From Candidatus Nitrotoga sp. HW29 (GTDB lineage Bacteria; Pseudomonadota; Gammaproteobacteria; Burkholderiales; Gallionellaceae), in contig NZ_CAKMAA020000005.1 in NCBI RefSeq assembly GCF_924101635.2, positions 1-64,000 of the forward strand: 64,000 bases of DNA. Reading direction: 5' to 3'. A program made the translations under genes and the position numbers. Under the pieces are notes generated by a model. That model was given only the letters and a program-made list of their open reading frames with translations, was not told where the DNA came from and made no database searches. Each line of letters starts with the position of its first letter. Within the stretch, counting starts at the first letter, position 1. Below, one piece after another: positions 12,298-57,274 of the stretch.

Positions 12298-12298
12298 A

Positions 12299-18830: not shown

Positions 18831-18836
18831 GATAGT

Positions 18837-19058: not shown

Positions 19059-19064
19059 ATTTAA

Positions 19065-20300: not shown

Positions 20301-20302
20301 AT

Positions 20303-20998: not shown

Positions 20999-21003
20999 AT
21001 CTG

Positions 21004-21846: not shown

Positions 21847-21850
21847 AAAA

Positions 21851-23362
21851 TTATTTGTTAATTCCTAGTTCCTTTAAGTATTCGACCATCTGCTTTTCAA
21901 GCTTCTGAAGCTCTGGCTCAAGCTCAGCCAGCTCTTTAAGATTTGCTTTAATATCCACAGGAACCTCTTCCTCAAACGTATCAACATACCGTGTTATATT
22001 GAGGTTGAAGTCGTTCTCTTCTATTTCGGCCAGATCCACTTTGCGAGCAAATTTCTCTACATCCTTTCGTTTGGTGTATGTGTTGTGAATCTTCTCAATA
22101 TTTTCGGAAGTCAAAACATTCTGTGCTTTTGCTGACTTAAACTCCTTTGATGCTTCAATGAAGAATATGTCTTTCTTCTTTTCGTTCGCTCCACCTTTTT
22201 CACGTGAACGATCAATAACAAAAATTGCCACCGGAATGCCTGTGGTTTGGAAGAGTCCTGCCGGTAGACCAATCACTGCCTCAATAATGTTTTCTTTAAT
22301 AAGCTGTTCTCGAATCTTGCCCTCAACTCCACCACGGAAGAGCACGCCGTGCGGAACAATGACTGCCACACGGCCTGTCTTGGGCTTTGCGGATTCGATC
22401 ATGTGCGTAATGAATGCAAAGTCACCTTTGTCTTTTGGTGGTACTCCTCTCCAGAAACGATTGTATGCGTCTGACTCAGCGTGCTCAGCACCCCATTTTT
22501 TGAGAGAAAACGGAGGATTGGCAACAACGACATCAAATTTCATGAGTTGGTCGTTTTCGACCAACAGTGGGTTGTTGAGCGTGTCACCCCATTCAAGACG
22601 AGCCGAGTCCTTTCCGTGGAGGAACATGTTCATACGGGCGAGCTGGAACGTCGAGCCTGTCGATTCTTGACCATAGAGCGCGTAGTTCTTCGAACCTTTC
22701 TTTTCCACCTCTTCACCTGCCAAGAGAAGAAGACCCCCCGAGCCACAAGCTGGATCACAGATACGGTCGCCCTCCTTTGGTTCGGCAAGCATAGCGACCA
22801 GCTGAGCCACTGAACGAACCGTGAAGAATTCACCCGCTTTTTTGCCCGCATCAGCACCGAAGCGTTCAATCATGTACATGTATGAGTTGCCGATGATGTC
22901 GTCACCCACATCCGATAGGTCAATTTTTGCAAAGTCCTGAATGAGGTGGCGCAGCATTTTGTTACGCTGGGCCAACTTACCCAGTACCGACTCAGAGTTG
23001 AAATCTACACTAAAAACACCTTCGAGTTTTTCACCGTTTGCATCTTCGATACGGCGCAACGCTTTGTTGATTTCATCGCCGATATTGTCTTCCTCAATCT
23101 TGTTGTATATGTAATCAAACGATGATTTTGGGGGGAGATAAAAGCGATCGAGTTTCATCTTCTCCTCGATACGCTTTTCGTTACTTCCAAAGCGCGCCTT
23201 GTATTCGTTATGACGCTTTTTATTAAGGTCACTCAGATACTTGAAGAAGAGCATGGTGAGTGCATAGTCTTTATATACACCTCCATCCACGCTACTTCGT
23301 GAGGAGTCGGCGGCGGCCCAGAGAATTTTATTGAGTTCTTCCTGAGTGAATAGCTTAGTCAT
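21851..23362 (-). CDS. hsdM: Type I restriction enzyme methyltransferase subunit HsdM
   Basis: HsdM methylates adenine in the target sequence and protects host DNA. The 503-residue product has the N-terminal helical domain (EELNKILWAAADSSR), the SAM-binding motif CDPACGSGGLLLLAG near residue 200 and the catalytic NPPF motif (VVVANPPFSLKKW) near residue 280. Length is normal. It overlaps the half-size hsdS upstream by eight bases. Confidence 0.97.
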   Translation of the reverse strand: MTKLFTQEELNKILWAAADSSRSSVDGGVYKDYALTMLFFKYLSDLNKKRHNEYKARFGSNEKRIEEKMKLDRFYLPPKSSFDYIYNKIEEDNIGDEINKALRRIEDANGEKLEGVFSVDFNSESVLGKLAQRNKMLRHLIQDFAKIDLSDVGDDIIGNSYMYMIERFGADAGKKAGEFFTVRSVAQLVAMLAEPKEGDRICDPACGSGGLLLLAGEEVEKKGSKNYALYGQESTGSTFQLARMNMFLHGKDSARLEWGDTLNNPLLVENDQLMKFDVVVANPPFSLKKWGAEHAESDAYNRFWRGVPPKDKGDFAFITHMIESAKPKTGRVAVIVPHGVLFRGGVEGKIREQLIKENIIEAVIGLPAGLFQTTGIPVAIFVIDRSREKGGANEKKKDIFFIEASKEFKSAKAQNVLTSENIEKIHNTYTKRKDVEKFARKVDLAEIEENDFNLNITRYVDTFEEEVPVDIKANLKELAELEPELQKLEKQMVEYLKELGINK

Positions 23363-23939
23363 AGTGTTTTGTTAGGTTTGTAAAGGTGGCATCGAGTATT
23401 TGTTGCTTTAATTCATTCTTGCGATCCAGTATTTTCTGTTGCATCTGCATATTGTGATAAAGGTTGATAATGGCACTTTGTTTCCGTAGGTCGGGCACTG
23501 GTATTTTCAGTTGTTCAAGCAGGCGGCGGGGAAGTGCACCAATGTATGAACCTGTCACAATCTCCGAAAGTGAATCCTGTCCATTTTTTGAATTAAGATA
23601 GTAGGAGACGTACTCAGGCAATACTTTAGGAGCTGTGATGCGGATAATATGCACCGATGACGATGCAATCACATTTGATGCATCCGACTGGAATACGGTT
23701 GATCTAAATGCTCCTGTTTTCATACCTCTTGCAATAACAAGTACATCATCCTTCTTGAGGTAGCCCGCATAACCAGTGGGATCAAAGGCGATTGGAGTGA
23801 GTGTGCTCACGTCGGTAATAAACGCACCACGAACCAGATCCTTCGCCTGAAACACAAGAAGACCACCATTTTTGTCTGGCGTGATGGCACCTCGGAAGGT
23901 GTATCCAGCAATGATAGTAGCGATGTCATGTAATTTCAT
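23355..23939 (-). CDS. Half-size HsdS-like specificity protein
   Basis: The 194-residue product has one target-recognition domain (KLHDIATIIAGYTFRGAI, then LKIPVPDLRKQSAIINLYHN) followed by one conserved helical segment. That is half of a normal HsdS. It is the first gene of the operon and overlaps hsdM. The ATG at 23939 is chosen because the likely promoter ends at 23947, which leaves no room for the ATG at 23945. It may dimerise or compete with the full HsdS. Confidence 0.85.
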   Translation of the reverse strand: MKLHDIATIIAGYTFRGAITPDKNGGLLVFQAKDLVRGAFITDVSTLTPIAFDPTGYAGYLKKDDVLVIARGMKTGAFRSTVFQSDASNVIASSSVHIIRITAPKVLPEYVSYYLNSKNGQDSLSEIVTGSYIGALPRRLLEQLKIPVPDLRKQSAIINLYHNMQMQQKILDRKNELKQQILDATFTNLTKHYD

Positions 23940-23946
23940 GTGCATG

Positions 23947-24104: not shown

Positions 24105-24134
24105 TATAAAAAACCCGGCTATTCCGCCGGGTTT
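24105..24134 (-). terminator. Intrinsic terminator after the ardC-like gene
   Basis: Nine-base arms AAACCCGGC and GCCGGGTTT with a six-base loop, followed on the minus strand by a run of T. The stem overlaps the stop of the frameshifted ardC reading frame. Confidence 0.85.
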
Positions 24135-25068
24135 AAAAGAACTCTTCGTCATACAGTCTTTTCAATACTGCTTTTGTTAGACAAGGTCTCCAAGAACTGA
24201 CTCGCCGCAGATGCCGCACTCGCTGCCACAAATATCGCCGTTTTCTGTTCTTTAAGCACACGAAGCCAGCTTGCAATGTATGCAGCATGATCTGGCCTCG
24301 GATATGTCTGATGCCAAGAGAAGCACACAAAAACGCAGCACCAAGTTCGGCAATAAGCTCTTCCATGGCATAGGCACTTGATCCAAACCGTCCAGACAAA
24401 TCACGCTTGAGACGCGAGGGATGCCCTGACCAATGAATATGCTCATGAAAGAGTACTGCATAGAATCCCTCAATTGCTCTTCCAGATTTTGTATCATGGA
24501 AATTCGCTCGATGAGGCATAAAGACGCGATCTAAAGTCAAGTTGTAGTAGGCGGAGTCACTCCCATATCGTATATCACTCGAAAGTGCGTCAACGAACTC
24601 ATCAACCGCACTAAGCGTGCTGTCGTCAACTTCGTGAGGTGATTCCTGGGATGACCATCCATCCACTTGGTCACTGTTAAATACGAACGAGTGGCGGAGC
24701 ACCGCTCGCGTTTTTTCTGGTTCATCGGTGTCATCGGATAGGTTGTCAGCTGTCTTCTCTTCACGTTTATAAAAGACGACAACAGAACCACGCTCTTCCT
24801 TCCGTACCTGTGCACCAAGTGATTGCCATTGACGGTAAGACGCCCAATATGAACTTGCGTATCCGTTTCGTTGGCCTGCTACCCAAAGTACAAGGGTATT
24901 CACACCACGGTATACATTGCCTGTCGCCGGATTTCGAGGTAGTCCAGCCTGCGCACGTCTATGCCACGGCATCTCAAATACCGATACTCTTGTTTCAATT
25001 GCCTGTACGATTTCATCCGTTACCCGTGCATGGATATCAGACCTATTGCTTGCTTGTGTGTTATTCAT
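24133..25068 (-). CDS. ArdC-like antirestriction protein, 3' frameshift
   Basis: ArdC-type proteins protect incoming DNA from restriction; they join an N-terminal ssDNA-binding domain to a zincin-like domain. Seen here: the N-terminal domain (MPWHRRAQAGLPRNPATGN), the metal motif FHEHIHWSGHPSRL and IAELGAAFLCASLGI. After this, near 24298-24304, the family C-terminus DHAAYIASWLRVLKEQKTA continues in another frame and stops at 24149. The 311-residue frame given here ends in unrelated residues. One missing base would explain it. The gene has an AAGGAGAT ribosome site that is part of a hairpin. Confidence 0.85.
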   Translation of the reverse strand: MNNTQASNRSDIHARVTDEIVQAIETRVSVFEMPWHRRAQAGLPRNPATGNVYRGVNTLVLWVAGQRNGYASSYWASYRQWQSLGAQVRKEERGSVVVFYKREEKTADNLSDDTDEPEKTRAVLRHSFVFNSDQVDGWSSQESPHEVDDSTLSAVDEFVDALSSDIRYGSDSAYYNLTLDRVFMPHRANFHDTKSGRAIEGFYAVLFHEHIHWSGHPSRLKRDLSGRFGSSAYAMEELIAELGAAFLCASLGIRHIRGQIMLHTLQAGFVCLKNRKRRYLWQRVRHLRRVSSWRPCLTKAVLKRLYDEEFF

Positions 25069-27924: not shown

Positions 27925-29475
27925 ATGAGATATGTATATGCATACATTCGTGTATCTACACTAAAGCAAGGTGAGCATGGCTCATCACTGACAGAACAAC
28001 GTTTCGCTATAGAGAATTACGCGAAGCGTCACAATCTCACCATTACCGAATGGTTTGAAGAGAAAGAAACCGCCGCCAAGCGTGGCCGGACCATATTTAC
28101 CCACATGCTCGCCTTGCTCATCAAGGGACGAGCGCACGGAGTAATTATTCATAAGATTGATCGAGGTGCGAGAAATCTTCGGGATTGGGCAGACCTCGGC
28201 GGACTTATCGACAAGGGTATAGAAGTACACTTCGCACATGAAAGCCTTGATATGCAGTCACGCGGGGGTCGCCTGGCTGCCGACATACAGGCAGTTGTCG
28301 CTGCCGACTTTATTCGCAATCTTCGGGATGAAGTAAAAAAAGGCTTCCAGGGAAGACTAAGACAGGGTTTGTATCCATTGCCTGCCCCTCTAGGATATAA
28401 GGATCAAGGACGAGGGCTGCCAAAAATTCCCGACCCCTTAATGGCTCCGCTGGTACAACAGGCTTTTCGTCTATATGCCTCTACTCAATACAACCTTTAT
28501 ACGCTTGGCAAGGAGATGCATCAGGCAGGTTTGAGAAACCGCCGTGGCGGAGTCGTATCTCGAAATGGACTTTCAACCATGCTTAATAATGAATTCTATA
28601 TCGGAATTATTCATATAGTGAGAACAGGGGAACGTCATCAAGGAATTCATGAGCCTCTGATTAAGAAAAGCCAGTTTGATCGCGTCCAGGATGTTTTGCA
28701 TGGAAGGACCAAGAATACCGGGTTGAAGCATGATTTTCGCTATCGCAAGTCGCTGCGGTGTGTTCATTGCAAATATAATTTGATTCCTGAACGCCAAAAA
28801 GGGAATGTCTATTACCGTTGCCATACACGTGACTGTCCTAGGGCATGCGTGCGAGAAGATTCCATCGATGAACAAATGAAACAGGTTTTGGATTCTCTAT
28901 GGATGCCCAATGAAGAAATCATCGTGATCGAAAGGGAACTGTCCCATCTTAAGGAGGAGCGTTTCAAAAGGAGCAAAGAATTGCTAAATGCGGCAGAACT
29001 GAACGTCTCCAATATTGATGCGCGAATCAGCCGACTCACCGATGCCTATATTGATCGCATGATTGATAAAGCTACTTTTGAAGAAAAGAATCAAAAACTG
29101 CTTCATGAGATAGTGAATGCACGAGAGTCATTAAATACTATATGCAAGGAATTCGAAGAAAAAGACGGTCGAATTCAAATTTTCCTCGAACTGATAAAAG
29201 CTATATCTACCAACAGGGATTACGCAAATGAGCTTGAGAATCGTGATTTACTTAAATCAGTCACCTCGAGCTTTCAAGTAGACGGAAAAAACCTTGTAGT
29301 TAATTGGAAAATTCCATTTGAAGCGGTCGCATCTCGCACTAAATCACCTTATAGTGAACCGTATCGATACAGACCTCGAACTCGCCACCCAAAACCAAAG
29401 CATTTCTCAAAACAATTATTCCACCTCCTCCACGAACAAAAACCACCCGACGAACCAAAGAAGTTCATCCTCTAA
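27925..29475 (+). CDS. Large serine recombinase 1
   Basis: A complete 516-residue serine recombinase: catalytic domain with AYIRVSTLKQGEHG, the conserved KIDRGARNLRDWADL segment, Recombinase domain (about residues 150-260), zinc ribbon (CVHCKYNL then CHTRDCPRAC) and a coiled coil from about residue 325. It differs from the element's left-end integrase and is closest to the recombinase that follows it. Its 3' end is repeated at 34870-34991. Confidence 0.93.
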   Translation: MRYVYAYIRVSTLKQGEHGSSLTEQRFAIENYAKRHNLTITEWFEEKETAAKRGRTIFTHMLALLIKGRAHGVIIHKIDRGARNLRDWADLGGLIDKGIEVHFAHESLDMQSRGGRLAADIQAVVAADFIRNLRDEVKKGFQGRLRQGLYPLPAPLGYKDQGRGLPKIPDPLMAPLVQQAFRLYASTQYNLYTLGKEMHQAGLRNRRGGVVSRNGLSTMLNNEFYIGIIHIVRTGERHQGIHEPLIKKSQFDRVQDVLHGRTKNTGLKHDFRYRKSLRCVHCKYNLIPERQKGNVYYRCHTRDCPRACVREDSIDEQMKQVLDSLWMPNEEIIVIERELSHLKEERFKRSKELLNAAELNVSNIDARISRLTDAYIDRMIDKATFEEKNQKLLHEIVNARESLNTICKEFEEKDGRIQIFLELIKAISTNRDYANELENRDLLKSVTSSFQVDGKNLVVNWKIPFEAVASRTKSPYSEPYRYRPRTRHPKPKHFSKQLFHLLHEQKPPDEPKKFIL

Positions 29476-29712
29476 GAATAAGGCAACGGCAGAATAAAAG
29501 TAGGAGGGAAAATATGCACGAAGTGAATCTTGTTCTAGCATAGAGATACCCTATACAGGGCTAACACAACCTCATCTATGTCACACACATACATCGCCTA
29601 TGTTCGCGTCTCAACCACCAAGCAATTCATCCAAGGGGTCTCAATAGCTGAACAACGTCGGGCCATTACCAAATATTCAGCAGAGCATCACTTCAATATC
29701 GTAGAGTGGTAC
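29354..29712 (+). repeat. Direct repeat, left copy (recombinase 3' end, spacer, next recombinase 5' end)
   Basis: The last 120 bases of recombinase 1, the spacer and the first 45 codons of recombinase 2 recur at 34870-35226 in the same order and strand, with scattered differences. The two copies flank recombinase 2 and the Gabija genes. The spacer includes a 29-base identical block (29536-29564). Confidence 0.88.
29536..29564 (+). promoter_or_regulatory. Conserved 29-base block before a recombinase gene, copy 1
   Basis: Identical to 35051-35079. It contains the near-palindrome CCCTATACAGGG and ends about 14 bases before the recombinase start. It may be an operator or a recombination site. 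Confidence 0.6.
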
Positions 29713-30600
29713 GAAGAAATACAGAGTGCGGCCAAAGGTCGACGGCCAGTGTTTAGCGAAGTTATCAAAATACTGAAGCAACGGCACTATGGTCTAATCA
29801 TGCATAAGATTGATCGCGGAGCGAGAAATCTCCGTGACTGGGCTGATATTGGAGATCTGATTGATGCCGGAATTGAAGTGCGCTTTGCTCATGACAATCT
29901 GGACCTCGATACCCGTGGCGGTCGTCTCACCGCTGACATTCAAGCCGTCATTGCCGCTGACTATATCCGCAATCTAAGAGAGGAAGTACGAAAGGGAATC
30001 CAAGGTCGATTGCAGCAAGGCATCTATCCGTTCCGAGCACCCCGTGGCTACCTCAATCGCGGTGGTGGTCGAGTAAAGATTCCTGATCCTATCTATGCAC
30101 CCCTAATCGTGACCGCCTTCCATCGTTATGCTACCGGTGCCTATACACTGAAGAAGCTGACGGATGAGTTGCTGATTATTGGCCTTAGCAATCCTAATGG
30201 GAACAAACTTACCCCGAGTACCTTGTCGAGAATATTCCGCTGTCATTTCTATGTGGGTGAGTATCGAGTACGAGGAGTGACCTACCAAGGACTTCATCAA
30301 CCACTCATATCAAGAGACCTCTTTAACTCCGTACAACGAATGCTGAGCCTGCGGAAACATAGCAAGCATCTCAAGTATGCCTTTCGCTACCGTCGACAAT
30401 TAAAGTGCCAGACCTGCCAACACCACCTGATCGGGGAAAGACAGAAAGGAAGAACATACTACCGTTGCCATAATTGTCCGCGAGTATCAGTGCGGGAGGA
30501 TCGTGTTCCGGCCTTGGTAGGGAGGGAAGATTCCACCTTTACCGTCGTTACTGAAATTAAGCCTGAATTAACGCCGTTTGATCAGTTTGGTTCACTGTAA
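29578..30600 (+). CDS. Serine recombinase 2, C-terminally truncated
   Basis: The 340-residue product has the catalytic domain (AYVRVSTTKQFIQGVSIAEQ), KIDRGARNLRDWADI, the Recombinase domain and the zinc ribbon (CQTCQHHL). It is clearly related to recombinase 1 up to SVREDR near residue 305. After that it reads about 35 unrelated residues and stops, so the coiled-coil part is missing. The original 3' end seems to survive at 34870-34991, beyond the Gabija genes. It is probably inactive or altered in function. Confidence 0.88.
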   Translation: MSHTYIAYVRVSTTKQFIQGVSIAEQRRAITKYSAEHHFNIVEWYEEIQSAAKGRRPVFSEVIKILKQRHYGLIMHKIDRGARNLRDWADIGDLIDAGIEVRFAHDNLDLDTRGGRLTADIQAVIAADYIRNLREEVRKGIQGRLQQGIYPFRAPRGYLNRGGGRVKIPDPIYAPLIVTAFHRYATGAYTLKKLTDELLIIGLSNPNGNKLTPSTLSRIFRCHFYVGEYRVRGVTYQGLHQPLISRDLFNSVQRMLSLRKHSKHLKYAFRYRRQLKCQTCQHHLIGERQKGRTYYRCHNCPRVSVREDRVPALVGREDSTFTVVTEIKPELTPFDQFGSL

Positions 30601-30796
30601 AGTAAATCGTTGTGGTCTAAAAATTATCAAATGGTTCTACTATCTATATTTTCATTACTGCATGTAATGTTATTGAAATGCACTAAAGTTAGATAAGGGT
30701 GTGTGCTGGCTATTATTTCTTAGTTTGCTAGACTGATTTAGATAGGTAGGCAATTAGATTTCGCACACCATCTCGCTTAAGAAAAACGGGGAAGAA

Positions 30797-32785
30797 ATGA
30801 AAATAGAATCACTCACATTACAAAATTTCCGCTGTTTTGGAACAAATCCACAAACATTTTCGTTGTCTGAGGATATTACAGCGTTTGTGGGAAGTAATGG
30901 TACTGGAAAAACGGCTGCAATGCAGGCTCTGTTGAGAATGTTTGGTATATCGGAAGAACAGCGTCGAATTCGACTTCAGGATTTTCACGTGCCTCGTGAT
31001 GAAAAGATCCCACCTCAGCAGCGTGATCTGGTAATTGAAGCTATTCTAGTTTTTCCAGAACTCGAGAATGAAGATGATGATGTTGCCGATAAAGCAGCAA
31101 CGACAGTACCTAGCTTCTTTAAGCATTTGTCTGTATCAGAAGATGGAAAATTAAAGTGCAGATTTCGCCTAGAAGCGAAGTGGGTGGATGATGGATCTGC
31201 AGAAGGAGCTATAGAACCAGCACGATTTTGGGGTGTGCGTAAATTGTCTGGAATCCCCGAAGACGATGAGAAAGAAAGTGTCAGTGTGTTGGATCGGGCA
31301 GCTATACAGGTAGTATATATACCTGCGACTCGTGATGGTGCGGCTCAAGTTAGCCAACTCTTACGCGGTCGACTTTGGCGCGCAATAAAGTGGACTGAAG
31401 AGACCAAGGAAAAAATTAGTAAGTTTGGGGAAGAAATTAATAAACAGTTTTCAGCTGTGTCAGCCATCAAGGAAATCACAGAAAATTTAACCTGCCGTTG
31501 GCGGGAGGTGCACGGTGGAGGAACTCATTCAACACCAACATTGCGCCCAGTTGAGCCGAAATTTGAGGATTTAGTGAGAAAGATTGGTGTGTCATTTTCA
31601 CCAGATGAAGCGGGAAGAGAGGCTGAGATTGATGATCTTAGTGACGGACAACGTTCTCTTTTTCATGTGGCGCTGACCACAGCAATACTGGATGTGGAAG
31701 CAGCTATATTAAGTGGCAAGCATAAAAAATCCTTTGAGCAGGATTCGATTATGTTGCCGGTACTTACAATTGTTGCCCTCGAAGAACCTGAAAATTGCCT
31801 CGCTCCATTTTATCTTTCCCGTATTCTCCATCAGATGAAGGAGCTGGCTCTGCGGCCTGGCGCGCAGGTTGTTGTTTCCAGTCATTCTGCAAGTATCTTG
31901 AGTCGCATTACACCTGAGGCCGTTCGCTATTTCCGACTCGATGAAAAACATAACGCCCAAGTACGTTCGCTCACTCTTCCACCTACAGAAGGTGAAGCCG
32001 GAAAGTATGTCCGTGAGGCAGTGCGCGCGTATCCAGAATTGTATTTCGCCCGATTCGTGATTTTCGGCGAAGGTGATTCTGAAGAAATTGTATTACCTCG
32101 TATCGCATCAGCCATGAGTTTACCTATTGACCGTTCATTTGTTGCTATTGTTCCGTTAGGAGGAAGGCATGTTAATCATTTTTGGCGGTTAGTACACGAT
32201 CTAAAAATACCTCACGCAACTCTTATTGATCTTGATCTTGGAAGGTTTGGAGGTGGTTGGGGACGAATCAAGTATGTAATGGAGCAGTTGATAGAAAACG
32301 GCTATGAGTCAGCAAAGCTATTGGGTGTAGCAGATAATAATAAAGCAATCGAGCAATTATCCGCCATGCCCACTTGGGGCTATGATGATTATAAGATTTT
32401 AAGTGATTGGATGACGTACCTTGAAAACAAGGCAGACGTATATTTTTCTGGGAAGATTGATCTCGATTGGTCAATGCTTAAACGCTTTCCAACCTATTAC
32501 CAAACCCTTGAAGACGGAGAAAAGGGCCCAAAAGGGAAAGCAGAAGCCGCGAAGATTGCTGTCTTAGGTGATGAAGGTAATCCCGATTTATACAAAGATA
32601 TCGACGACAATGATTTTCGTTGGTATCGCTATTTATTTCTTGGTCGAGGGAAGCCAACTTCTCATCTTCGAGCTTTGACACTAATCCCAGAAGCAGAACT
32701 AAAGGAAAAGGCTCCTCCTGTGTTAAAGCGATTATTGACAAACGCAGCTCTGAAATTAGAACTAATTGAAGATATTTCAAAATAA
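30797..32785 (+). CDS. gajA: Gabija-type GajA (OLD-family ATPase-TOPRIM nuclease)
   Basis: GajA senses nucleotide depletion during phage infection and cleaves DNA. The 662-residue product has Walker A (VGSNGTGKTAAM, about residue 32), ABC signature LSDGQRS (about 281), Walker B VALEEPEN (about 326), an H-loop (VVSSHSASIL) and a C-terminal TOPRIM domain with FGEGDSEE (about 421) and LIDLDLGRFGG (about 475). The next gene, a UvrD-like helicase, overlaps by one base, as in class 2 OLD/Gabija pairs. A GGGGAAG ribosome site precedes the start. The block is AT-richer than the host backbone. Confidence 0.88.
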   Translation: MKIESLTLQNFRCFGTNPQTFSLSEDITAFVGSNGTGKTAAMQALLRMFGISEEQRRIRLQDFHVPRDEKIPPQQRDLVIEAILVFPELENEDDDVADKAATTVPSFFKHLSVSEDGKLKCRFRLEAKWVDDGSAEGAIEPARFWGVRKLSGIPEDDEKESVSVLDRAAIQVVYIPATRDGAAQVSQLLRGRLWRAIKWTEETKEKISKFGEEINKQFSAVSAIKEITENLTCRWREVHGGGTHSTPTLRPVEPKFEDLVRKIGVSFSPDEAGREAEIDDLSDGQRSLFHVALTTAILDVEAAILSGKHKKSFEQDSIMLPVLTIVALEEPENCLAPFYLSRILHQMKELALRPGAQVVVSSHSASILSRITPEAVRYFRLDEKHNAQVRSLTLPPTEGEAGKYVREAVRAYPELYFARFVIFGEGDSEEIVLPRIASAMSLPIDRSFVAIVPLGGRHVNHFWRLVHDLKIPHATLIDLDLGRFGGGWGRIKYVMEQLIENGYESAKLLGVADNNKAIEQLSAMPTWGYDDYKILSDWMTYLENKADVYFSGKIDLDWSMLKRFPTYYQTLEDGEKGPKGKAEAAKIAVLGDEGNPDLYKDIDDNDFRWYRYLFLGRGKPTSHLRALTLIPEAELKEKAPPVLKRLLTNAALKLELIEDISK

Positions 32786-34665
32786 TGGTTTTAATTTCTC
32801 AAAAAGACTGGAAGACTGTTGGTGTAGCTGGATTAGAACCCAATGCTTGGGAAGCACTGCGTGCCCTGCATAACACATGTGTGACTGCTGGCCCAGGGGC
32901 TGGAAAAACTGAATTCCTCGCTCAACGGGCTACTTACTTGCTTCAAACGGGTTTATGCCCAGATCCTCAGCGCATCTTAGCAATTAGTTTCAAACGGGAT
33001 GCGGCGCGTAATCTACAAGAACGGGTTAATAAACGCTGTCCGCCAGAACAAGCGCGACGATTTGTCTCCATGACATATGATGCTTTTGCAAAGAGCTTGT
33101 TGGATCAATTTATTAACGGGATTCCAGCTATGTGGCGTCCGAAGTCGGACTACATTTTAGAGCCATTGGTAACACAAGATGTAAAGTCTATCTTAGAATC
33201 AGCCAGACATGCAGTAAGACCAGAATGGGGGGCATTTATTGCTGGAGTACCAGAAGGAAACTTTGAATCTCTTTGGCTTGGACGCCAACATCTTCAAAGC
33301 GATCCTTCAGTCAATTCGGCTCAGATCGAATGGCTTCTCCAGTATTGGTGGAAATCCATGAACGTGACAAAAAATGGTGGACAGCTTACTTACACGATGG
33401 TGAATAGATTAGCTGAATTTATCCTACGAGCCCGCCCCAATATTCGTAAAGCATTACGACTAACATATCCTTTCGTTTTTCTCGACGAATTTCAAGATAC
33501 AACATACGCACAATATGGACTCGTTACGACTGCATTTCACGGTAACACTTCTGTCCTTACAGCAGTTGGAGATGATAAACAGCGCATAATGGTATGGGCA
33601 GGTGCGATGCCTCATGCCTTCAAACAATTTTCGAAAGACTTTAACACAGCGCCAATTTCATTACTTTGTAATTACCGTTCGCGTCCTGAACTGGTCGATA
33701 TCCAACATGTTGTTGCTCAGGCCCTTGAAATTGGATCGCCAGTCGTTGAATCACGCGCCTTAGCAAATATTGGCGGCACATGTTCAGAAATCTGGAATTT
33801 CTCCAATCAAAGCTCAGAAGCACATTATCTTGCAACATGGCTTGCTGATGATGCGCAAATGCACGAACTTAAACCGCGTGACTATTGCATATTAGTGCGT
33901 CAAAAAGCGGATGATTTTGAGAATCAACTTTACCCGCACTTTGAGAAACTTGGATTGAAGTTACGTAATGAAAGTAGATTGATTGAAGGTGTTCCTCTAC
34001 AAGATTTACTAGTAGAGGAAATTTCCAAAATAGTGCTACATATCCTCACTGCTGCTATTAAAACACGAGTGCCAGAGTCGTTAAATTTTTCTTATGATGC
34101 AATTTGTGAAATTCAAGGAATTGATAAACAAAATACTTTTGCAGTGAAACAAGCAAGGGGTTCGGTTGAATTACTAATAAAAAAACTTAAGCCAACCCTA
34201 AATAAATCACCCTCAAAAGAGCATGCCCAACTTGTTGTTCAGACAGTTATTGATTTCATTGACCCTGATAACTTACGTAGGTCGTCCCCACGATATGCGT
34301 TAGGTGATACGCTGGACAAAATAATTGCCGCACTCATTATGTACGTTACGGAATCGAGTCAAAGTTCTGACACATGGGAAGGATGGTTAGATGAGATATC
34401 TGGAGAAAATCACATACCTCTAATGACCATCCACAAGAGTAAAGGACTTGAGTTTCACACAGTATGTTTCCTCGGTCTTGACGATACGCAGTGGTGGAGT
34501 CACAAATCTGGGGATCATGAAAGCCTAGCGACCTTCTTCGTTGCCTTATCTCGGGCAAAGCAGCGAGTCTTTTTTACCTATTGTAGAAATCGTATTAAAG
34601 CGAAAGTTTCTGATCTTTACTCCTTGCTGAGTGATGCCGGAATTGGGGAAGTAACGTATGAATAA
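32785..34665 (+). CDS. gajB: Gabija-type GajB (UvrD-like helicase)
   Basis: GajB is the UvrD/Rep-like partner that activates GajA after DNA termini appear. The 626-residue product shows the SF1A motifs in order: Walker A AGPGAGKTEFL (about residue 36), FKRDAARN, FLDEFQDTTYAQYG (about 232), GDDKQRIMVWAGA (about 262), NYRSRPELV, HKSKGLEFHTV (about 550) and VALSRAKQRVFF (about 586). Its ATG overlaps the gajA stop. A repair helicase is less likely given this coupling. Confidence 0.88.
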   Translation: MVLISQKDWKTVGVAGLEPNAWEALRALHNTCVTAGPGAGKTEFLAQRATYLLQTGLCPDPQRILAISFKRDAARNLQERVNKRCPPEQARRFVSMTYDAFAKSLLDQFINGIPAMWRPKSDYILEPLVTQDVKSILESARHAVRPEWGAFIAGVPEGNFESLWLGRQHLQSDPSVNSAQIEWLLQYWWKSMNVTKNGGQLTYTMVNRLAEFILRARPNIRKALRLTYPFVFLDEFQDTTYAQYGLVTTAFHGNTSVLTAVGDDKQRIMVWAGAMPHAFKQFSKDFNTAPISLLCNYRSRPELVDIQHVVAQALEIGSPVVESRALANIGGTCSEIWNFSNQSSEAHYLATWLADDAQMHELKPRDYCILVRQKADDFENQLYPHFEKLGLKLRNESRLIEGVPLQDLLVEEISKIVLHILTAAIKTRVPESLNFSYDAICEIQGIDKQNTFAVKQARGSVELLIKKLKPTLNKSPSKEHAQLVVQTVIDFIDPDNLRRSSPRYALGDTLDKIIAALIMYVTESSQSSDTWEGWLDEISGENHIPLMTIHKSKGLEFHTVCFLGLDDTQWWSHKSGDHESLATFFVALSRAKQRVFFTYCRNRIKAKVSDLYSLLSDAGIGEVTYE

Positions 34666-34869
34666 GGCAAATACATATGTGGTTGCGGGTAATTTCACAA
34701 CCGTTATTGTCATCACTTCATTTGAGCCTTAAATACAGCCGTTAAATCAGTTCGAGTATCCTTAGGGTGTAAAATTTAGAGCAAAATTTCGTCCGTTAAA
34801 TCCTCAAAATATGGCTTATTTTAAGGGTTTGGTGACTGCGATCTGAGCTAAAAATAGCTGTTTCCTTAT

Positions 34870-34991
34870 GTGAACCGTATCGATACAGACCTCGAACTCA
34901 CCACCGAAAACCAAAGCATTTCTCAAAAAAACTATTCAACCTCCTCCACAAACAACCACCACCAGACGAAACCAGAAAGCTCATCCATTAA
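34870..34991 (+). pseudogene. Remnant of a recombinase 3' end
   Basis: This fragment encodes EPYRYRPRTHHRKPKHFSKK and ends in TAA at 34989-34991. It matches the C-terminus of recombinase 1 and has no start. It is probably the original end of recombinase 2, separated from it by the Gabija insertion. Confidence 0.85.
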
Positions 34992-35050
34992 GCATAGTTC
35001 AGTGTCGGGATTGATCATAGGAGGGAAAAGGTGCTCATGAAGAATATTGT

Positions 35051-35079
35051 TAGCATAGAGATACCCTATACAGGGCTAA
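35051..35079 (+). promoter_or_regulatory. Conserved 29-base block before a recombinase gene, copy 2
   Basis: Identical to 29536-29564, again about 14 bases upstream of a recombinase start. Conservation is higher here than in the flanking spacer. Confidence 0.6.
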
Positions 35080-35092
35080 TTCATCCATCACT

Positions 35093-35226
35093 ATGTCAAA
35101 CACCTATATCGCCTATGTTCGCGTCTCCACCACCAAGCAATTCATTCAAGGAGTCTCAATCGCTGAACAACGGCGAGTCATCACTAAGTATGCCATTGAT
35201 CATCATTTCAGTATCGATAGATGGTT
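35093..35226 (+). pseudogene. Remnant of a third serine recombinase (5' end)
   Basis: The first 40 or so codons (AYVRVSTTKQFIQGVSIAEQ) match recombinase 2, then similarity stops abruptly after HHFSIDRW. The frame runs on through unrelated sequence. The break marks the left border of the metal-resistance block. Confidence 0.85.
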
Positions 35227-35279: not shown

Positions 35280-36101
35280 TTAAGGGGCATGCTGGAAAGT
35301 TTTTACCGCTGAGATCAGCAAGATGACACCTAGTAAGGTAATCAACACACGCTGAGGCACTATTCCTAGCAACAACCCGCCTATACCTGCGCCAAGAATT
35401 GATCCAGCCACCATCCAACGAAACAAGAGACGCTCCTGACGCAGTACTGCAAAGGCATTTGAACTGCTATAGCGGGCAAAACCAACGATCACGGTGGGTA
35501 GGCTGACCATCAGGGAGAGACTTCCAGCCAGCTTGATATCCAATCCGTATAACAACACGATGGTAGGTATCAGTAATTCGCCACCTGCTACACCCAAGAG
35601 AGCCGCAACCATACCGATACTGAGTCCGGCCGCTAAGCCTACGATGAAACGAATAGGGCCAGCATCAATGAGTGGCGTACCTCCATTGTTGAATTCAAAT
35701 ATAGCCTCAGACAGCATCAACAACGCCAATCCAATCAGCAATACCATGATTATTCGATTTAGCAATTGACGCGACATCTTGATAGCATGGCCTGCCGCCC
35801 ACCACGCTCCAAGAAGACTGCCCGCCAGGAGATTTACGGCAACATCCAGATGAGGAAGTAATTGATCAAAAGGAACTGCCTCTGCTCGAAAGATTAATGC
35901 AGCAGTTACCACAACCAAGCTAACAGCCTTGTTGAGTATGACGGCCTCCAACGAAGGCAGATGGAAGAATCCCACTAGCACCGGCAATCGAAACTCTGCC
36001 CCGCCCAAACCGATCAATCCGCCGAGGGTGCCAATCAGAGAGGCAGCGAGAAAGCCCCACCAGGCGCGTGCACGTGGGCTCACTGACGTTCTATCACACA
36101 T
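35280..36101 (-). CDS. TauE/SafE-family membrane permease
   Basis: The 273-residue product is a multi-pass membrane protein with the internal duplication typical of the TauE/SafE (sulfite/sulfonate exporter) family: GTLGGLIGLGGAEFRLPVL in the first half and AALLGVAGGELLIPTIVLL in the second. The substrate is not known. It is the last gene of the arsenic cluster and overlaps a small ORF upstream; a role in anion export is inferred from family only. Confidence 0.85.
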   Translation of the reverse strand: MCDRTSVSPRARAWWGFLAASLIGTLGGLIGLGGAEFRLPVLVGFFHLPSLEAVILNKAVSLVVVTAALIFRAEAVPFDQLLPHLDVAVNLLAGSLLGAWWAAGHAIKMSRQLLNRIIMVLLIGLALLMLSEAIFEFNNGGTPLIDAGPIRFIVGLAAGLSIGMVAALLGVAGGELLIPTIVLLYGLDIKLAGSLSLMVSLPTVIVGFARYSSSNAFAVLRQERLLFRWMVAGSILGAGIGGLLLGIVPQRVLITLLGVILLISAVKTFQHAP

Positions 36102-36271
36102 GCTCGCTTAAGTAAGAAATCATCGTCCTTTAGGTGGATTTCAAGCATGCTATGCCAGTTCATCCAGTGAGGCAAAATGAGAGCAGCCACGGATTCCACG
36201 TAATAGGGCGTACCATCCTTGACGAAGTGCTGGGGGTACGCCCCGACCTTATTGAACAACAGTTCGCGCAT
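36080..36271 (-). CDS. Small hypothetical protein in the ars cluster
   Basis: A 63-residue protein (MRELLFNKVGAYPQHFVKD) between acr3 and the TauE/SafE gene, three bases after acr3 and overlapping the permease start by 22 bases. I do not recognise it. Tight coupling on both sides supports that it is translated. Confidence 0.5.
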   Translation of the reverse strand: MRELLFNKVGAYPQHFVKDGTPYYVESVAALILPHWMNWHSMLEIHLKDDDFLLKRACVIERQ

Positions 36272-36274
36272 GCT

Positions 36275-37321
36275 CTAGTGTCCTGAACTGAGCCGCACGT
36301 TGTTCCTATTTTCATACCACCCTTGGCTGCGTTTCACTATTGCCACTACCGATAGCATCACCGGTACTTCAACCAGTACCCCAACTACCGTTGCCAAGGC
36401 AGCCCCGGATTCAAAACCGAACAAACTAATAGCGGCAGCTACTGCCAATTCAAAAAAGTTACTCGCACCAATTAGTGCCGACGGACCTGCTATGCAATGC
36501 GCCTCACCGAAGCGGCGATTCAGCCAATATGCCAAGCCTGAGGTGAAATACACCTGAATGATGATTGGTACGGCAAGCATGACAATGATGAGTGGCTGCT
36601 CGATGATAGCTTTTCCCTGAAAAGCGAACAGCAAAACCAGCGTTAGTAGCAGAGCCGCGATTGAAACAGGATGGAGCGCAGCCAAGGTGCGCTTCAATGA
36701 TTCTTCGCCACGCGCCAATAGCAGTTTGCGCCATGCTTGTGCCAGTAACACAGGCAGCACAATGTACAACACCACTGATACTAGCAGCGTATTCCACGGA
36801 ACGATGATCGATGAAATGCCGAGCAACAATGCCACCAGCGGAGCGAAGGCAAAAACCATGATGACATCATTGAGCGCAACTTGGCTTAGTGTAAACAATG
36901 GGTCACCATTCACCAGGCGACTCCACACAAACACCATCGCAGTACAAGGTGCAGCGGCAAGCAATATAAGTCCTGCCATATAGCTATCGAGTTGATCTAC
37001 AGGAAGATACGATGCGAACAGTTGCCGGATAAATAGCCAGCCGAGCAGCGCCATGGAAAATGGTTTTATCGCCCAGTTGATAAATAACGTAACGCCTATG
37101 CCCCGCCAGTGTTTGCGCACTTCATGCAATGCCCCGAAGTCGATGCGCAACAGCATGGGAATGATCATCACCCAAATCAGCAAGCCAACGGGCAGATTAA
37201 CCGAAGCTACTTTTAATTCACCGAGCCAGCGGAACGGAGCAGGGATCAATTGTCCCAATACCACTCCAATAATGATACACATGAAGACCCAAATGGTCAG
37301 GTAGCGTTCAAAAATACTCAT
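36275..37321 (-). CDS. acr3: ACR3-family arsenite efflux transporter
   Basis: ACR3 exports arsenite across the inner membrane. The 348-residue product has ten predicted helices and the family motif LAAAPCTAMVFVWSRL, which contains the conserved Cys, plus GPSALIGASNFFELAVAAAI late in the protein. Length is normal. It lies just after arsA, and ArsA may energise it. Confidence 0.95.
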   Translation of the reverse strand: MSIFERYLTIWVFMCIIIGVVLGQLIPAPFRWLGELKVASVNLPVGLLIWVMIIPMLLRIDFGALHEVRKHWRGIGVTLFINWAIKPFSMALLGWLFIRQLFASYLPVDQLDSYMAGLILLAAAPCTAMVFVWSRLVNGDPLFTLSQVALNDVIMVFAFAPLVALLLGISSIIVPWNTLLVSVVLYIVLPVLLAQAWRKLLLARGEESLKRTLAALHPVSIAALLLTLVLLFAFQGKAIIEQPLIIVMLAVPIIIQVYFTSGLAYWLNRRFGEAHCIAGPSALIGASNFFELAVAAAISLFGFESGAALATVVGVLVEVPVMLSVVAIVKRSQGWYENRNNVRLSSGH

Positions 37322-37340
37322 TTTTCATCCTTGTTTATCG

Positions 37341-39092
37341 CTAGGCGGGGTTAGTCAATGCAAGCAACGCTTTGATTCCCACTGGCTCATCAGCCTTAGC
37401 AGGCACGACTGCAATACGTTGTGCACACTGTTGTTGCACTATTTGAAGATGTTCCCATTCCTGCTCGGCGCGCTTTGCCAGTAGTGGTGAGGTGTGCTGT
37501 GCCGCAGCCAGACTCTGATTGACGATCCATGCCCAAGGTTCGATCCCAGCACGCCGCAAATCCTCCTGCAAATTAGTGGCCTCCAGTACCGGCGTGGTTT
37601 CAGCCAAAGTCACAATGAGCACACGCGTGTGTGTTTGGTTTTGGAGATACATCATCGGTGTGGTGAAGTGCAGCGTTTTGTCCTTCAGATTGCGAGCAAC
37701 TTCATGGTGATAGGCTCCGGTAGCATCCAGGAGCAACAGTGTGTGCCCGGTCGGTGCGGTATCCATTACCACAAAAGCGTGATTGGCATCGTGGATAGAG
37801 CGTGAGAATGCCTGAAACACCGCGATCTCTTCGGTACAGGGTGAACGCAGGTCTTCTTCCAACAATGCACGTCCTTGCGTATCCAGATCCTTTCCTTTTG
37901 TTTCCAAGACATATTGACGATAGCGCTCAGATTCGACGTGCGGGTCAATGCAGCTCATTTTCAGGTTCTTTATTTCACCCTGCAACGTTGCTGTTAAATG
38001 AGCCGCCGGATCAGACGTGGTGAGCTCTACAGTGTGTCCACGAGCCGCCAATTCAACAGCAATCGCTGCCGCCAGTGTTGTTTTCCCTACACCACCTTTA
38101 CCCATTAGCATAATTAAGCCATGTTCGGCTTTCTCAAGCTCGTCGATCAAAATGGAAAGCTTGGGCAGCTCGACTTCATGTTGCGAAATTGCATTCGGAA
38201 CGTTGATTGGCTGGTCACTGATCAAGGCACGCAATGCTTTGACGCCTACCATGTTAAACGGCATCAACTTGCGCACATCCGATGTCAATTTGCTCAGCAC
38301 ATTGGGCATAGTATTAATGGCATTTTGTTCGCGTCGATAAATGGCTAACGCTACTGGATCGCTCGTTTCATTTGCGGGCATGCATCCGTTAACCACCAGA
38401 TATTGATGCGTTAGGCCAATATGCTCCAATTCTTTGCTGGTGCGCGCCGCTTCCAGCAAAGTGGATCGTTGCGCGCGCGCAACCAATACCAACCGTGTGC
38501 GGCGGAAATCTGCGAGTACCGCTACGGCATCGCTGTAGCGCTGACGCTGCTTTTCCAATCCGGCCAATGGCCCAAGGCAGGATGCACCATCTGGGTTGTT
38601 ATCCAGAAAGCCGCTCCATGCGCCAGGTAATTGCAGCAAACGAATGGTGTGGCCGGTGGGAGCGGTATCGAAAATAATATGGTCGAATGGCTCAATTAGA
38701 GCAGTATCTGTGAGCAATCCGGTGAATTCGTCAAATGCTGCGATTTCCGTCGTGCATGCACCAGAAAGCTGTTCTTCAATTCCTCTGATGACCGCTTCGG
38801 GCAGACTCCCTCGTACCGGCTCGACTATGCGATCTCGGTACGCTTGGGCCGCCGCCTGGGGGTCGATCTCCAATGCAGACAGCCCCTTCACTTCTGGAAT
38901 GGGGGTGATCTTGTTGCCAATACTGATGCCCAATACCTGACCAACATTGGACGCTGGATCGGTGCTCACCAGTAGTACGCGCTTGCCTTCGTCTGCTAGC
39001 CGCACTGCGGTAGAACATGCCAATGAAGTCTTGCCCACCCCACCCTTGCCGGTAAAAAATAGGAATTGAGGAACGTCTTTCAGCAATTTCAT
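37341..39092 (-). CDS. arsA: Arsenite-stimulated ATPase ArsA
   Basis: ArsA is the cytosolic ATPase that drives arsenite efflux. The 583-residue product has two homologous halves, each with a deviant Walker A (FTGKGGVGKTSLACS near residue 15 and GKGGVGKTTLAAAIA near residue 333) and a DTAPTGHT signature. Cysteines of the metalloid site are present (GACTTEIAAFDEF, GASCLGPL, RSPCTEEIAVFQAF). It follows arsD, its metallochaperone. Confidence 0.96.
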   Translation of the reverse strand: MKLLKDVPQFLFFTGKGGVGKTSLACSTAVRLADEGKRVLLVSTDPASNVGQVLGISIGNKITPIPEVKGLSALEIDPQAAAQAYRDRIVEPVRGSLPEAVIRGIEEQLSGACTTEIAAFDEFTGLLTDTALIEPFDHIIFDTAPTGHTIRLLQLPGAWSGFLDNNPDGASCLGPLAGLEKQRQRYSDAVAVLADFRRTRLVLVARAQRSTLLEAARTSKELEHIGLTHQYLVVNGCMPANETSDPVALAIYRREQNAINTMPNVLSKLTSDVRKLMPFNMVGVKALRALISDQPINVPNAISQHEVELPKLSILIDELEKAEHGLIMLMGKGGVGKTTLAAAIAVELAARGHTVELTTSDPAAHLTATLQGEIKNLKMSCIDPHVESERYRQYVLETKGKDLDTQGRALLEEDLRSPCTEEIAVFQAFSRSIHDANHAFVVMDTAPTGHTLLLLDATGAYHHEVARNLKDKTLHFTTPMMYLQNQTHTRVLIVTLAETTPVLEATNLQEDLRRAGIEPWAWIVNQSLAAAQHTSPLLAKRAEQEWEHLQIVQQQCAQRIAVVPAKADEPVGIKALLALTNPA

Positions 39093-39111
39093 AGTATCTA
39101 ACCTGTGCTCT

Positions 39112-39486
39112 TTAACAGCACTTGCTGCCAGAACCGCATGCCTCCGCTTTCACGTCAGAAACGGCTCTTTCATCCAAAGCACTGGATATACCCGCGAAAC
39201 GCGCTAATTCCTTACGTCCTGGGTAGCGTCCTGCTAAAGCAATTTCCCCATCCACCAACACTAGTGGCAATCCCTCCATCCCTGATCGTTCCAGAAAAGA
39301 TTTCACTATTGAATTTTCAGCAAAAGCCATGGGTTGCTGAGCGAGATTGAATCGCTCTATCAGTCCTCCTGCGCGCTTCAGCCAATCCACATCGGCGCTG
39401 AAATCTACCAATGCTTGATCAACCTCTGTCCCACATACACCTGTGCTACAACACAGGGCTGGATCAAAAACTTGTAGCTTGCTCAT
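39112..39486 (-). CDS. arsD: Arsenite metallochaperone ArsD
   Basis: ArsD binds arsenite and passes it to ArsA. The 124-residue product has the vicinal pair and third cysteine (DPALCCSTGVCGTEVDQ) needed for chaperone activity and a C-terminal CGSGSKCC. The start at 39486 has an AAGGAGAA ribosome site; an upstream in-frame ATG would overlap arsC. Confidence 0.95.
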   Translation of the reverse strand: MSKLQVFDPALCCSTGVCGTEVDQALVDFSADVDWLKRAGGLIERFNLAQQPMAFAENSIVKSFLERSGMEGLPLVLVDGEIALAGRYPGRKELARFAGISSALDERAVSDVKAEACGSGSKCC

Positions 39487-39496
39487 TCCATTCTCC

Positions 39497-39997
39497 TTAA
39501 TCCTTAATGCGACCGATTTCGGCAAGTTTTTCTTTCAAAGTAAGTTTGTCCAATTGTTCGATCGGCAAACTCATAAATAACTGAATGCGACGCGACAATT
39601 GGGTGTATGCAATTTTGAACGCAGCACGTTTGGCGTTATCATCCCCCTCTACATGCGCCGGGTCTGGAATCCCCCAGTGTGCAGTGGCAGGTTTCCCTGG
39701 CCAGATCGGGCAAGTTTCTCCCGCTGCGTTGTCACACACTGTAAAGATGAAATCGATATCAGGAGCACCGGGCGCGGCAAACTCTTCCCAGCTTTTGCTG
39801 CGTAGTCCTTCAATGCTGAGTCCAGTTTCCTGTAACAGCTCAAGCGCGAACGGATTGACGCGTCCGACAGGTTTACTACCAGCGCTGTGTGCAATAAACT
39901 TCCCCTTTCCCAATACATTGAAAAGTACTTCACCCAAGATGCTGCGTGCCGAGTTACCGGTACACAGCACCAACACGTTATATTTCTTTTCAGTCAT
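39497..39997 (-). CDS. arsC: Arsenate reductase ArsC (low-molecular-weight phosphatase fold)
   Basis: ArsC reduces arsenate to arsenite. The 166-residue product has the CX5R loop (VLCTGNSARS) and two further cysteines (FTVCDNAAGETCPIW) in the positions used for the disulfide relay of thioredoxin-coupled enzymes. The start at 39997 leaves a 20-base gap to arsR with a GGAGAGAC site. Length is normal. Confidence 0.95.
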   Translation of the reverse strand: MTEKKYNVLVLCTGNSARSILGEVLFNVLGKGKFIAHSAGSKPVGRVNPFALELLQETGLSIEGLRSKSWEEFAAPGAPDIDFIFTVCDNAAGETCPIWPGKPATAHWGIPDPAHVEGDDNAKRAAFKIAYTQLSRRIQLFMSLPIEQLDKLTLKEKLAEIGRIKD

Positions 39998-40017
39998 TCG
40001 TCTCTCCTTAGATATCT

Positions 40018-40341
40018 TCAACATTTCTTACTTGGCACCTTGCAGGCCTCTGCATTACCGCCGCAACAATTCTCCGTCAGGTATTCCACTATGCCATTCA
40101 TGACTTCAAAATTTGCCGCATAGTAGATAAAGCGCCCATCCTGTCGGCTTTCAATCAATTCTGCGTGACAAAGTGTCTTGAAGTGAAACGACAGTGTGGC
40201 GGGGGACACCTTCAATTTCTCTGCTACTTGTCCCGCCGCTATTCCTTCTGGCCCAATGGCCACCAGGAGATGGTAGATCGCCAAACGGGTAGGTTGCGCC
40301 AGTGCCGCTAATGCCTTTACCACTTGAGCTGGTTTCATCAT
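40018..40341 (-). CDS. arsR: Arsenic-responsive repressor ArsR
   Basis: ArsR represses the operon until arsenite binds. The 107-residue product has a winged helix (VSPATLSFHFKTLCHAELI) and a C-terminal cysteine cluster (C92, C93, C100 and C107). This layout resembles ArsR proteins that bind arsenite at the C-terminus, not in the DNA-binding helix. It is the first gene of arsR-C-D-A-acr3. Confidence 0.94.
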   Translation of the reverse strand: MMKPAQVVKALAALAQPTRLAIYHLLVAIGPEGIAAGQVAEKLKVSPATLSFHFKTLCHAELIESRQDGRFIYYAANFEVMNGIVEYLTENCCGGNAEACKVPSKKC

Positions 40342-40352
40342 TCTATAATTCC

Positions 40353-40365
40353 ATTGTTAAACAAT
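40353..40365 (-). promoter_or_regulatory. Probable ArsR operator
   Basis: Perfect inverted repeat ATTGTT-A-AACAAT 12 bases upstream of arsR, in an AT-rich promoter-like stretch. Confidence 0.6.
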
Positions 40366-40469
40366 TATCAAAATGATATTTGCAATTAAAACAGAAATTC
40401 GTGGGTCATTCAACTCCTATTAACATAATGCTCTACCTTAAAATTGAAACTAATCATCTGTTATAGGCG

Positions 40470-40511
40470 AGCTTGAGTGAAAACTAATTACAGTCAGTTT
40501 TCTCTCAAGCT
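40470..40511. terminator. Strong hairpin between ars and cus blocks
   Basis: Sixteen-base arms (AGCTTGAGTGAAAACT and AGTTTTCTCTCAAGCT) with one mismatch and a ten-base loop. It may be a terminator or a leftover end of an older insertion. The surrounding 40366-40944 has no gene I can support. Confidence 0.55.
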
Positions 40512-40772
40512 TTCTTAGATTGCCAAGTATAGAGCGCTGATTAAATGGATAAGCCAGTTATTAGAATGCGTTGACCTGTTCATGCCATTCATCAAAAATA
40601 TGCCCACTCAAGATCGTCCCGCAATGGAGTAGTTTATTATAGTCTGCAAGTGGATCCGATAATTGGGTGAACAGATAGACAGCGTAGCGGGCAACATGAA
40701 GGCCTGTATCAGTTTACTTATCTACAGTTTGATGTGGCATGGTGGCGGCAAAATGAAATTGCGAGCTTGGGT

Positions 40773-40788
40773 GGGGGCTCTAGCCCCC
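40773..40788. terminator. Short GC-rich hairpin
   Basis: GGGGGC-TCTA-GCCCCC. It lacks a clear T-run, so a terminator role is only possible. Confidence 0.35.
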
Positions 40789-40944
40789 TATGTAGGTACA
40801 TACACGGACTTATGAGTCACGGGTGGAAATTAAAATAGAACATTGCAATTTCATACCGGTTCCTAGGCGGTCGTGCTGCTGTGTTATACGATGCGCCGCC
40901 AAGTTATCTACTGTCATTGCTATATATAGGCGTTTTGAAGGATG

Positions 40945-41107
40945 GATGATGGCGGATTGTTGCAACGACAAAGCTGACCAAATAGAGTCACTTCGTGATC
41001 GCCAACGCTCAACACTTGAACTACAGCTCCACAGTCTCGCCTGCCAGTCTGAGGAGCACTGCTGCCACAAAAGCATTGCAGTTTTTACTCCCATCAGGCA
41101 GAGATGA
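40945..41107 (+). pseudogene. Possible remnant of a cation diffusion facilitator gene
   Basis: The frame starts MMADCCNDKADQIESLRDRQ, which resembles the cysteine-rich start of cation transporters often linked to metal operons. After about 27 codons the sequence no longer matches and soon stops. It may be the 5' remnant of a transporter cut away at the boundary between ars and cus. A free small Cys-rich protein is an alternative. Confidence 0.35.
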
Positions 41108-41139
41108 TGCTTAACTCAAAAAAGTGCATTTTTAATCAT

Positions 41140-41499
41140 TTATTTAACAGAGGTTACAATGTAAATATTGTCTTGTTTTATGAACTCGAAGTTGATTTTT
41201 TTGTCGATGGAAATTTTGTCGAAAAGCCCTTTGTCTTTCACAACGAAGTTCATTGTCATTACAGGCCATCCCAAACTTTTGACAGGTCCATGCGCTAGCG
41301 TCACAGAACCCTTCGACGAATCGACTGCCTTCACCACTCCAGCTGCCTTGTGGGTTATTAACTTAGGGAGCGCGACTTGGCCCTTTTTATCCACCTTCAT
41401 ATCTTGCATATCCATATCTTTCATGCCACCAGATTGAGCGATGGCAAGGCTGGATGCGGACAAGACGAGGATCAGGGGTAGAGTTGTGATAAGTTTCAT
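41140..41499 (-). CDS. cusF: Periplasmic copper/silver-binding protein CusF
   Basis: CusF binds Cu(I) or Ag(I) in the periplasm and delivers it to the CusCBA pump. The 119-residue product has a signal peptide (about residues 1-22), a Met/Asp-rich linker and the CusF domain with the ligand pattern AHGPVKSLGWPVMTMNF (His, Trp and two Met). An AAGGAAAT ribosome site precedes the start. It follows cusA by 60 bases. Confidence 0.93.
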   Translation of the reverse strand: MKLITTLPLILVLSASSLAIAQSGGMKDMDMQDMKVDKKGQVALPKLITHKAAGVVKAVDSSKGSVTLAHGPVKSLGWPVMTMNFVVKDKGLFDKISIDKKINFEFIKQDNIYIVTSVK

Positions 41500-41559
41500 G
41501 ATGATTTCCTTCGTTGGTTTAAGATGAGTGGGTAAAAACTTATTTATCGTGTCACAGCT

Positions 41560-47671: not shown

Positions 47672-47746
47672 AAAACCTCCAGATAGCAATGAACAACATC
47701 GTCCGCGCAAGACACGCGACGATGACTGACTAAGCGATCTGGAAAG

Positions 47747-57256: not shown

Positions 57257-57272
57257 AAAGGCAACGCGTCTC

Positions 57273-57274
57273 TG
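57273..57274 (+). other. attR core dinucleotide (TG)
   Basis: Right junction: comM coding sequence resumes with this TG as the start of the Cys codon of NPCPCG. Confidence 0.8.

Follow-up and report, generated by a model that had tools for sequence, protein, structure and literature searches.

A proposed integron-like platform in which a large serine recombinase probably moves the cassettes, the Gabija system among them

The window, that is the whole 64-kb stretch of DNA analysed here, carries a gene for a large serine recombinase (rec1), followed by a shorter serine recombinase gene (rec2), both members of the GajA and GajB pair by which Gabija systems are recognized, and a second, incomplete set of recombinase sequences (Table 1). 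Rec1 possesses the Resolvase and Recombinase domains, the Zn ribbon and the coiled coil of a large serine recombinase, which reach to about residue 469, and its residues ~477-516 are encoded by cassette 1. A genome scan for relatives of the rec1 family gave 59 loci from several phyla, and rec1 was found in the tree as the sister of the L010 recombinase (support 100/100). Homologues of the RuvC-like-looking protein occur in 32 loci, usually adjoining the HTH gene, and those of the P-loop helicase-like protein in 17 loci, as a rule ~1.6 kb 5' of the recombinase gene, while a TraD/HerA-like ATPase accompanies the recombinase in 40 loci. All four of these platform proteins (XRE, RuvC-like-looking, P-loop helicase-like and TraD/HerA-like) are present in the window.

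Table 1. Features of the recombinase locus, in coordinates of the window
Feature	Position	Strand	Basis or remark
RuvC-like-looking small protein, 177 aa	25139..25672	-	fold name guessed from sequence; no Pfam hit
XRE-type helix-turn-helix protein, 122 aa	25669..26037	-	Pfam HTH_3; homologues in 31 loci
P-loop helicase/ATPase-like protein, 451 aa	26267..27622	-	function guessed from P-loop-like motif; no Pfam hit
rec1, large serine recombinase, 516 aa	27925..29475	+	Pfam PF00239 (Resolvase) and PF07508 (Recombinase)
Putative recombination site 1 (attI-like), in rec1 3' end	29347..29392	+	PWM 31.3; presumed core ~29354-29356
Cassette 1	29355..34870	+	5,516 bp; tail codons, spacer, rec2, Gabija; flanked by two direct-orientation sites
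rec2, short serine recombinase, 340 aa, cassette-borne	29578..30600	+	Pfam Resolvase and Recombinase
gajA, Gabija ATPase-TOPRIM	30797..32785	+	PADLOC GajA 2e-242; Pfam OLD-like TOPRIM
gajB, Gabija UvrD-like helicase	32785..34665	+	PADLOC GajB 9.4e-214
Putative recombination site 2 (cassette junction)	34863..34908	+	PWM 29.6; presumed core ~34870-34872
Cassette 2 start: second recombinase tail CEPYRYRPRTHHRKPKHFSKKLFNLLHKQPPPDETRKLIH	34870..34994	+	40 codons and stop, rec1 frame
rec2' fragment, ~45 first codons of a second rec2	35093..35226	+	82% aa identity across 44 codons

Two pairs of direct repeats connect the two sets of recombinase sequences. Positions 29354-29480 match 34870-34996 over 127 nt (87% identity) and positions 29536-29701 match 35051-35216 over 166 nt (83% identity), the offset between the copies being constant at 5,515-5,516 bp across both pairs. 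Each copy contains, in this order, the final ~40 codons and the stop codon of a rec1-type recombinase, a spacer of ~100 bp, and the initial ~45 codons of a rec2-type recombinase. The repeats are far above chance expectation; a 27-base pattern of the site described below has two matches in the 3.0-Mb genome, which are the two window sites only, and a DNA-similarity search of plasmids for the window repeats gave no match. An earlier sequence-only reading had recognized in each repeat the end of one recombinase and the start of the next, and the repeats with both of these parts were borne out, but the tandem genes it described proved to be two complete genes (rec1 and rec2) and two fragments. Of the latter, the 3' piece at 34870 belongs to the rec1 type (73% aa and 87% nt identity with the rec1 tail) rather than to rec2, and the start at 35093 has 83% nt identity with that of rec2, so that the rec1-rec2 junction occurs a second time in the second repeat. 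The same reading had placed a recombinase start, cut at about codon 45, beside a metal-resistance block, and as an observation this was correct: the similarity of rec2' to rec2 stops after codon ~44-45, where this block begins, and the remainder of rec2' was found nowhere else in the 64-kb window. Directly after the cut, positions 35280-47710 hold arsenic genes (ACR3, ArsA, ArsD, ArsC, ArsR) and genes of the copper/heavy-metal efflux type, all named by eye.

Rec2 has no coiled-coil or C-terminal region. It forms a clade of three with the short recombinases of the Roseobacter loci L052 and L043 (support 100/99), all of which end shortly past a shared VREDR motif, the two Roseobacter members within ~20-46 residues, and are without a coiled coil. 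Like rec2, both Roseobacter short genes lie behind a long recombinase. Since its clade mates end at a similar position, rec2 is short by nature and was not split by the Gabija genes, as had been supposed. The rec2-type gene of L043 (12677-13663) resembles a hybrid, in that its start matches the adjoining long recombinase and the first ~43 residues are absent. With rec2 as the query, the only match among 369 genomes of the class (E<=1e-60) was to the window's own genome; a search of 389 other genomes from the order to which L052 belongs (E<=1e-105) gave no further rec2 relatives, and none were found in viral contigs. Likewise, no member of the rec1 family was found in 60 relatives of the window genome (E<=1e-40).

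The left edge of both window repeats coincides with a DNA motif of ~30 bases, roughly GGTGnnCCnnnnCGGGnCnnnnCTCGAAC, that is common to most rec1-family recombinase 3' ends. Sites were treated throughout as double-stranded sequence motifs. At a score of at least 20 the motif was found within the gene in 37 of 54 loci, the other 17 having no recognisable motif, and with leave-one-locus-out training in 34 of 53. For the conserved Arg of the motif, 25 of 27 genes use CGA, versus 15% elsewhere in the genes (p 6e-19), and for the Gly 18 of 20 use GGT, versus 18% elsewhere (p 6e-12). This codon usage rules out that the motif is merely a protein motif, and indicates that it is constrained as DNA. In the window, site 2 has 30 bases identical to site 1. 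When in-gene sites were compared with cassette sites (13 loci, 22 sites), identity was ~0.25-0.4 through base -2 and then 0.92-1.00 at -1 to +3; the similarity begins in a step, at one base, at the presumed core. In rec1 the position of the site corresponds to residue ~477, past the folded integrase part. Given that the similarity of rec1 to A118 integrase (residues 210-463) ends at 463 and that the predicted fold stops at ~469, with low confidence thereafter, an exchange of the tail should spare the enzyme.

A PWM trained on the in-gene sites only detected 24 further sites (score at least 20), all of them 3' of the recombinase and in its orientation, with none downstream on the minus strand and none upstream on either strand (0.46 Mb). 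Leave-one-locus-out training gave 21 further downstream same-strand sites versus 0 elsewhere, and the permuted PWM control gave 2-11 matches at a lower cut-off of 13. Cassettes are thereby delimited by site-like motifs in one orientation, as in the arrays of integrons, with up to four sites per locus (four each in L011, L025 and L059, three in L047). An extra site at a score of at least 18 was present in only 15 of 54 loci; within ~10 kb, most platforms have one site. Two additional platforms, L098 and L122, had a second site as well. With just two sites, and with its second cassette broken, the window is a modest member of the array class. The 23 intervals measured between sites have a median of 1.4 kb and range from 114 bp to 5.5 kb, six being below 200 bp. 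Read in the frame of the recombinase, the cassette starts are open and give tails whose lengths match, for example 39/39/39/39 in L025 and 28/28/28 in L050, with 50/53/50/50 and 48/44/49 as further cases. The tail frame is off by one base in three Roseobacter loci (L043, L062 and L100), which, like the single site of most platforms and the 17 loci without a recognisable in-gene motif, counts against the cassette model. Mini-cassettes of 114-159 bp, apparently consisting of a replacement tail only, were seen in L050 (11408-11750) and L059 (11408-11567 and 12392-12551).

Many of the cassettes carry defence genes. The cargo between sites comprises, besides Gabija in the window, an OLD-like ATPase-TOPRIM (L011), an AriA/OLD-like ATPase (L047), PifA (L062), a PDC-M36A candidate (L017) and a PemK-like toxin (L015). 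Patatin and TIR genes lie 3' of the last detected sites of L062, and SIR2-HerA is found behind the second site of L122. Several cassette genes are without a known family, and cassette genes occur on both strands.

Three genomes of the genus Parvibaculum share one platform and are colinear at 99.05-99.9% identity. Two of them (G372 and G805) carry one site each and the third (G370) carries four. G370 and G372 are 99.87% identical across 7.1 kb on the left and 99.05% across 16.4 kb on the right, and the excess of G370 at the site is 5,891 bp, exactly three cassettes measured from site to site. From a reading of the aligned site sequences, the crossover falls inside the 7-base stretch TGCTGCC. 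In these relatives, all of one genus, cassettes appear to be naturally gained or lost at the site. Position 4401 of L011 was considered as the left end of the Parvibaculum platform but was dropped, since a run of N lies there.

We propose, with a probability of roughly 0.8, that the locus is an integron-like cassette platform run by a large serine recombinase, and that Gabija is one of its cassettes. In the sequences, a short conserved DNA site, attI-like in position, lies in the last codons of the recombinase gene; behind it cassettes follow head-to-tail, each of which opens by repeating the right part of the site, and each cassette start encodes an alternative C-terminal tail in the recombinase frame, so that the recombinase gene stays open whichever cassette comes first. 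The enzymes of the rec1 family, rather than rec2, would perform the crossover at a TG/GT core of ~2 bp, inserting and excising circular cassettes, and the site of such a circle would recombine with the in-gene site. The tail would be the segment whose swapping the enzyme tolerates. Rec2 may aid the movement of its own cassette. In the window, cassette 2 would begin at 34871 with the second tail, followed by rec2', and it breaks off at ~35226 beside the arsenic/copper block. It also appears likely that such platforms form a widespread serine-recombinase counterpart of the integron (Proteobacteria, Acidobacteria, Bacteroidota, Patescibacteria-type), which gathers and swaps anti-phage defence cassettes at a site within its own recombinase gene, each cassette bringing a replacement C-terminus that keeps the gene intact. 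The earlier suggestion that such islands may generally grow by capturing cargo at recombinase genes gains support in a sharper form, since the recombinase 3' end holds an apparent site-specific recombination site and cassettes look to have been gained or lost there in relatives.

The history first put forward for the window assumed three recombinase genes in tandem, of which Gabija had split the second and the metal-resistance block had cut the third. A recombinase end and start in each of the two repeats, and the truncated third start, speak for it, but the short clade of rec2 occurs in unrelated loci, and the bodies of rec1 and rec2 are ~52% identical in their residues, yet the tails are rec1-like and the starts rec2-like at the nucleotide level. 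In addition, many relatives have the same repeats beside a single recombinase, which had been named beforehand as counting against an ancestral trio, and we regard this history as extremely improbable. An origin by segmental duplication or by homologous recombination between repeated recombinase 3' ends, with the motif as conserved coding sequence, is hardly more credible. That the repeats lie within coding sequence and are 83-87% identical would fit, but the constraint at the motif acts at the level of codons, and the window tail is not protein-constrained, since 12 of the 14 codons that differ between the second tail and the rec1 tail are nonsynonymous. Boundaries sharp to one base, the strict orientation and one-sidedness of the sites, and the exact length difference in Parvibaculum also argue against it.

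Unlikely, too, is the accretion of once-autonomous elements, as in composite SCC islands, which later lost their own recombinases and left tandem att sites behind. For SCC/ECC, tandem att sites with regeneration of the target gene have been described (PMC6222049), and locus L036 carries two full recombinases. Accretion predicts, however, a recombinase body directly to the left of the next core, and at the 22 extra sites of 13 loci the identity on the left is at chance (~25%); moreover, the cassettes are small.

Integrons are the textbook platform for gene capture and are based on a tyrosine recombinase: next to the fixed IntI gene lies attI, followed by small attC cassettes in a head-to-tail arrangement and one orientation, with anti-phage genes among their cargo. 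The rec1 platform resembles them in its fixed recombinase gene, its attI-like site, its junction sites in one orientation and its anti-phage cargo. It differs in that the enzyme is a serine recombinase (PF00239 and PF07508) rather than IntI, that the site is inside the recombinase gene so that each cassette brings a new C-terminus, and that cassettes may hold several genes on either strand, the sites sharing a right half of ~30 bases. In SCC/ECC (PMC6222049), CcrAB large serine recombinases act with att sites that recur in the rlmH 3' region and with variable cargo, and complex islands have multiple att sites. The rec1 platform shares the large serine recombinase, the recurrence of sites in a gene's 3' region and the variable cargo, but SCC-type elements target the rlmH 3' end and carry the ccr recombinase inside the element, whereas here the recombinase gene is itself the target, at its 3' end, and most cassettes are without a recombinase. 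An exchange of the integrase 3' end upon integration, as proposed for the rec1 platforms, is described for streptococcal ICEs in rumA (PMC4701971) and for phage Mx8, whose att is inside the integrase gene (PMC6070905); these are single elements with one tail exchange and with no cassette array or series of replacement tails.

Among openly licensed PMC papers, judged by title and abstract, no description of a serine-recombinase cassette array was found. If the proposed platform is real, cassette capture evolved twice, the second time independently on a serine recombinase. Defence islands would then have a concrete route to gain and lose systems, and the sites behind these recombinases would offer a simple handle for discovering new defence genes. 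A C-terminus that each cassette replaces is an uncommon way of keeping a recombinase gene that is its own target. Large serine recombinases serve as genome-engineering tools, and the rec1 family may be of practical use because its sites can be read from its own genes.

In Patescibacteria-type genomes the 3' end of the recombinase abuts or overlaps, in antisense, the 3' end of a tRNA gene (L016 10282-10355, L024 9802-9888, L032 11417-11489), which suggests tRNA ends as a chromosomal target. The right half-sites resemble tRNA 3' ends, but mimicry of such an end is only suggestive, with a differing spacing to TCGAAC of ~21 versus ~15 bases. In the window an island of ~44 kb splits yifB/comM into halves at 12275-13336 and 57228-57734, and the joined flanks match an unbroken gene in most genomes of the genus. 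Another serine recombinase (13309-14886, minus strand) is located at the left junction of this island, and its 3' end reads into comM. Two relatives carry the 3' part of comM once more (G813:C1 59267-59447 and G817:C21 28469-28650), 10-14 kb away from the main match, as though an element using the same site had rebuilt the end of the gene. The same island contains type I restriction-modification genes, named by eye, at 15642-23945 and an ArdC-like antirestriction gene at 24133-25068.
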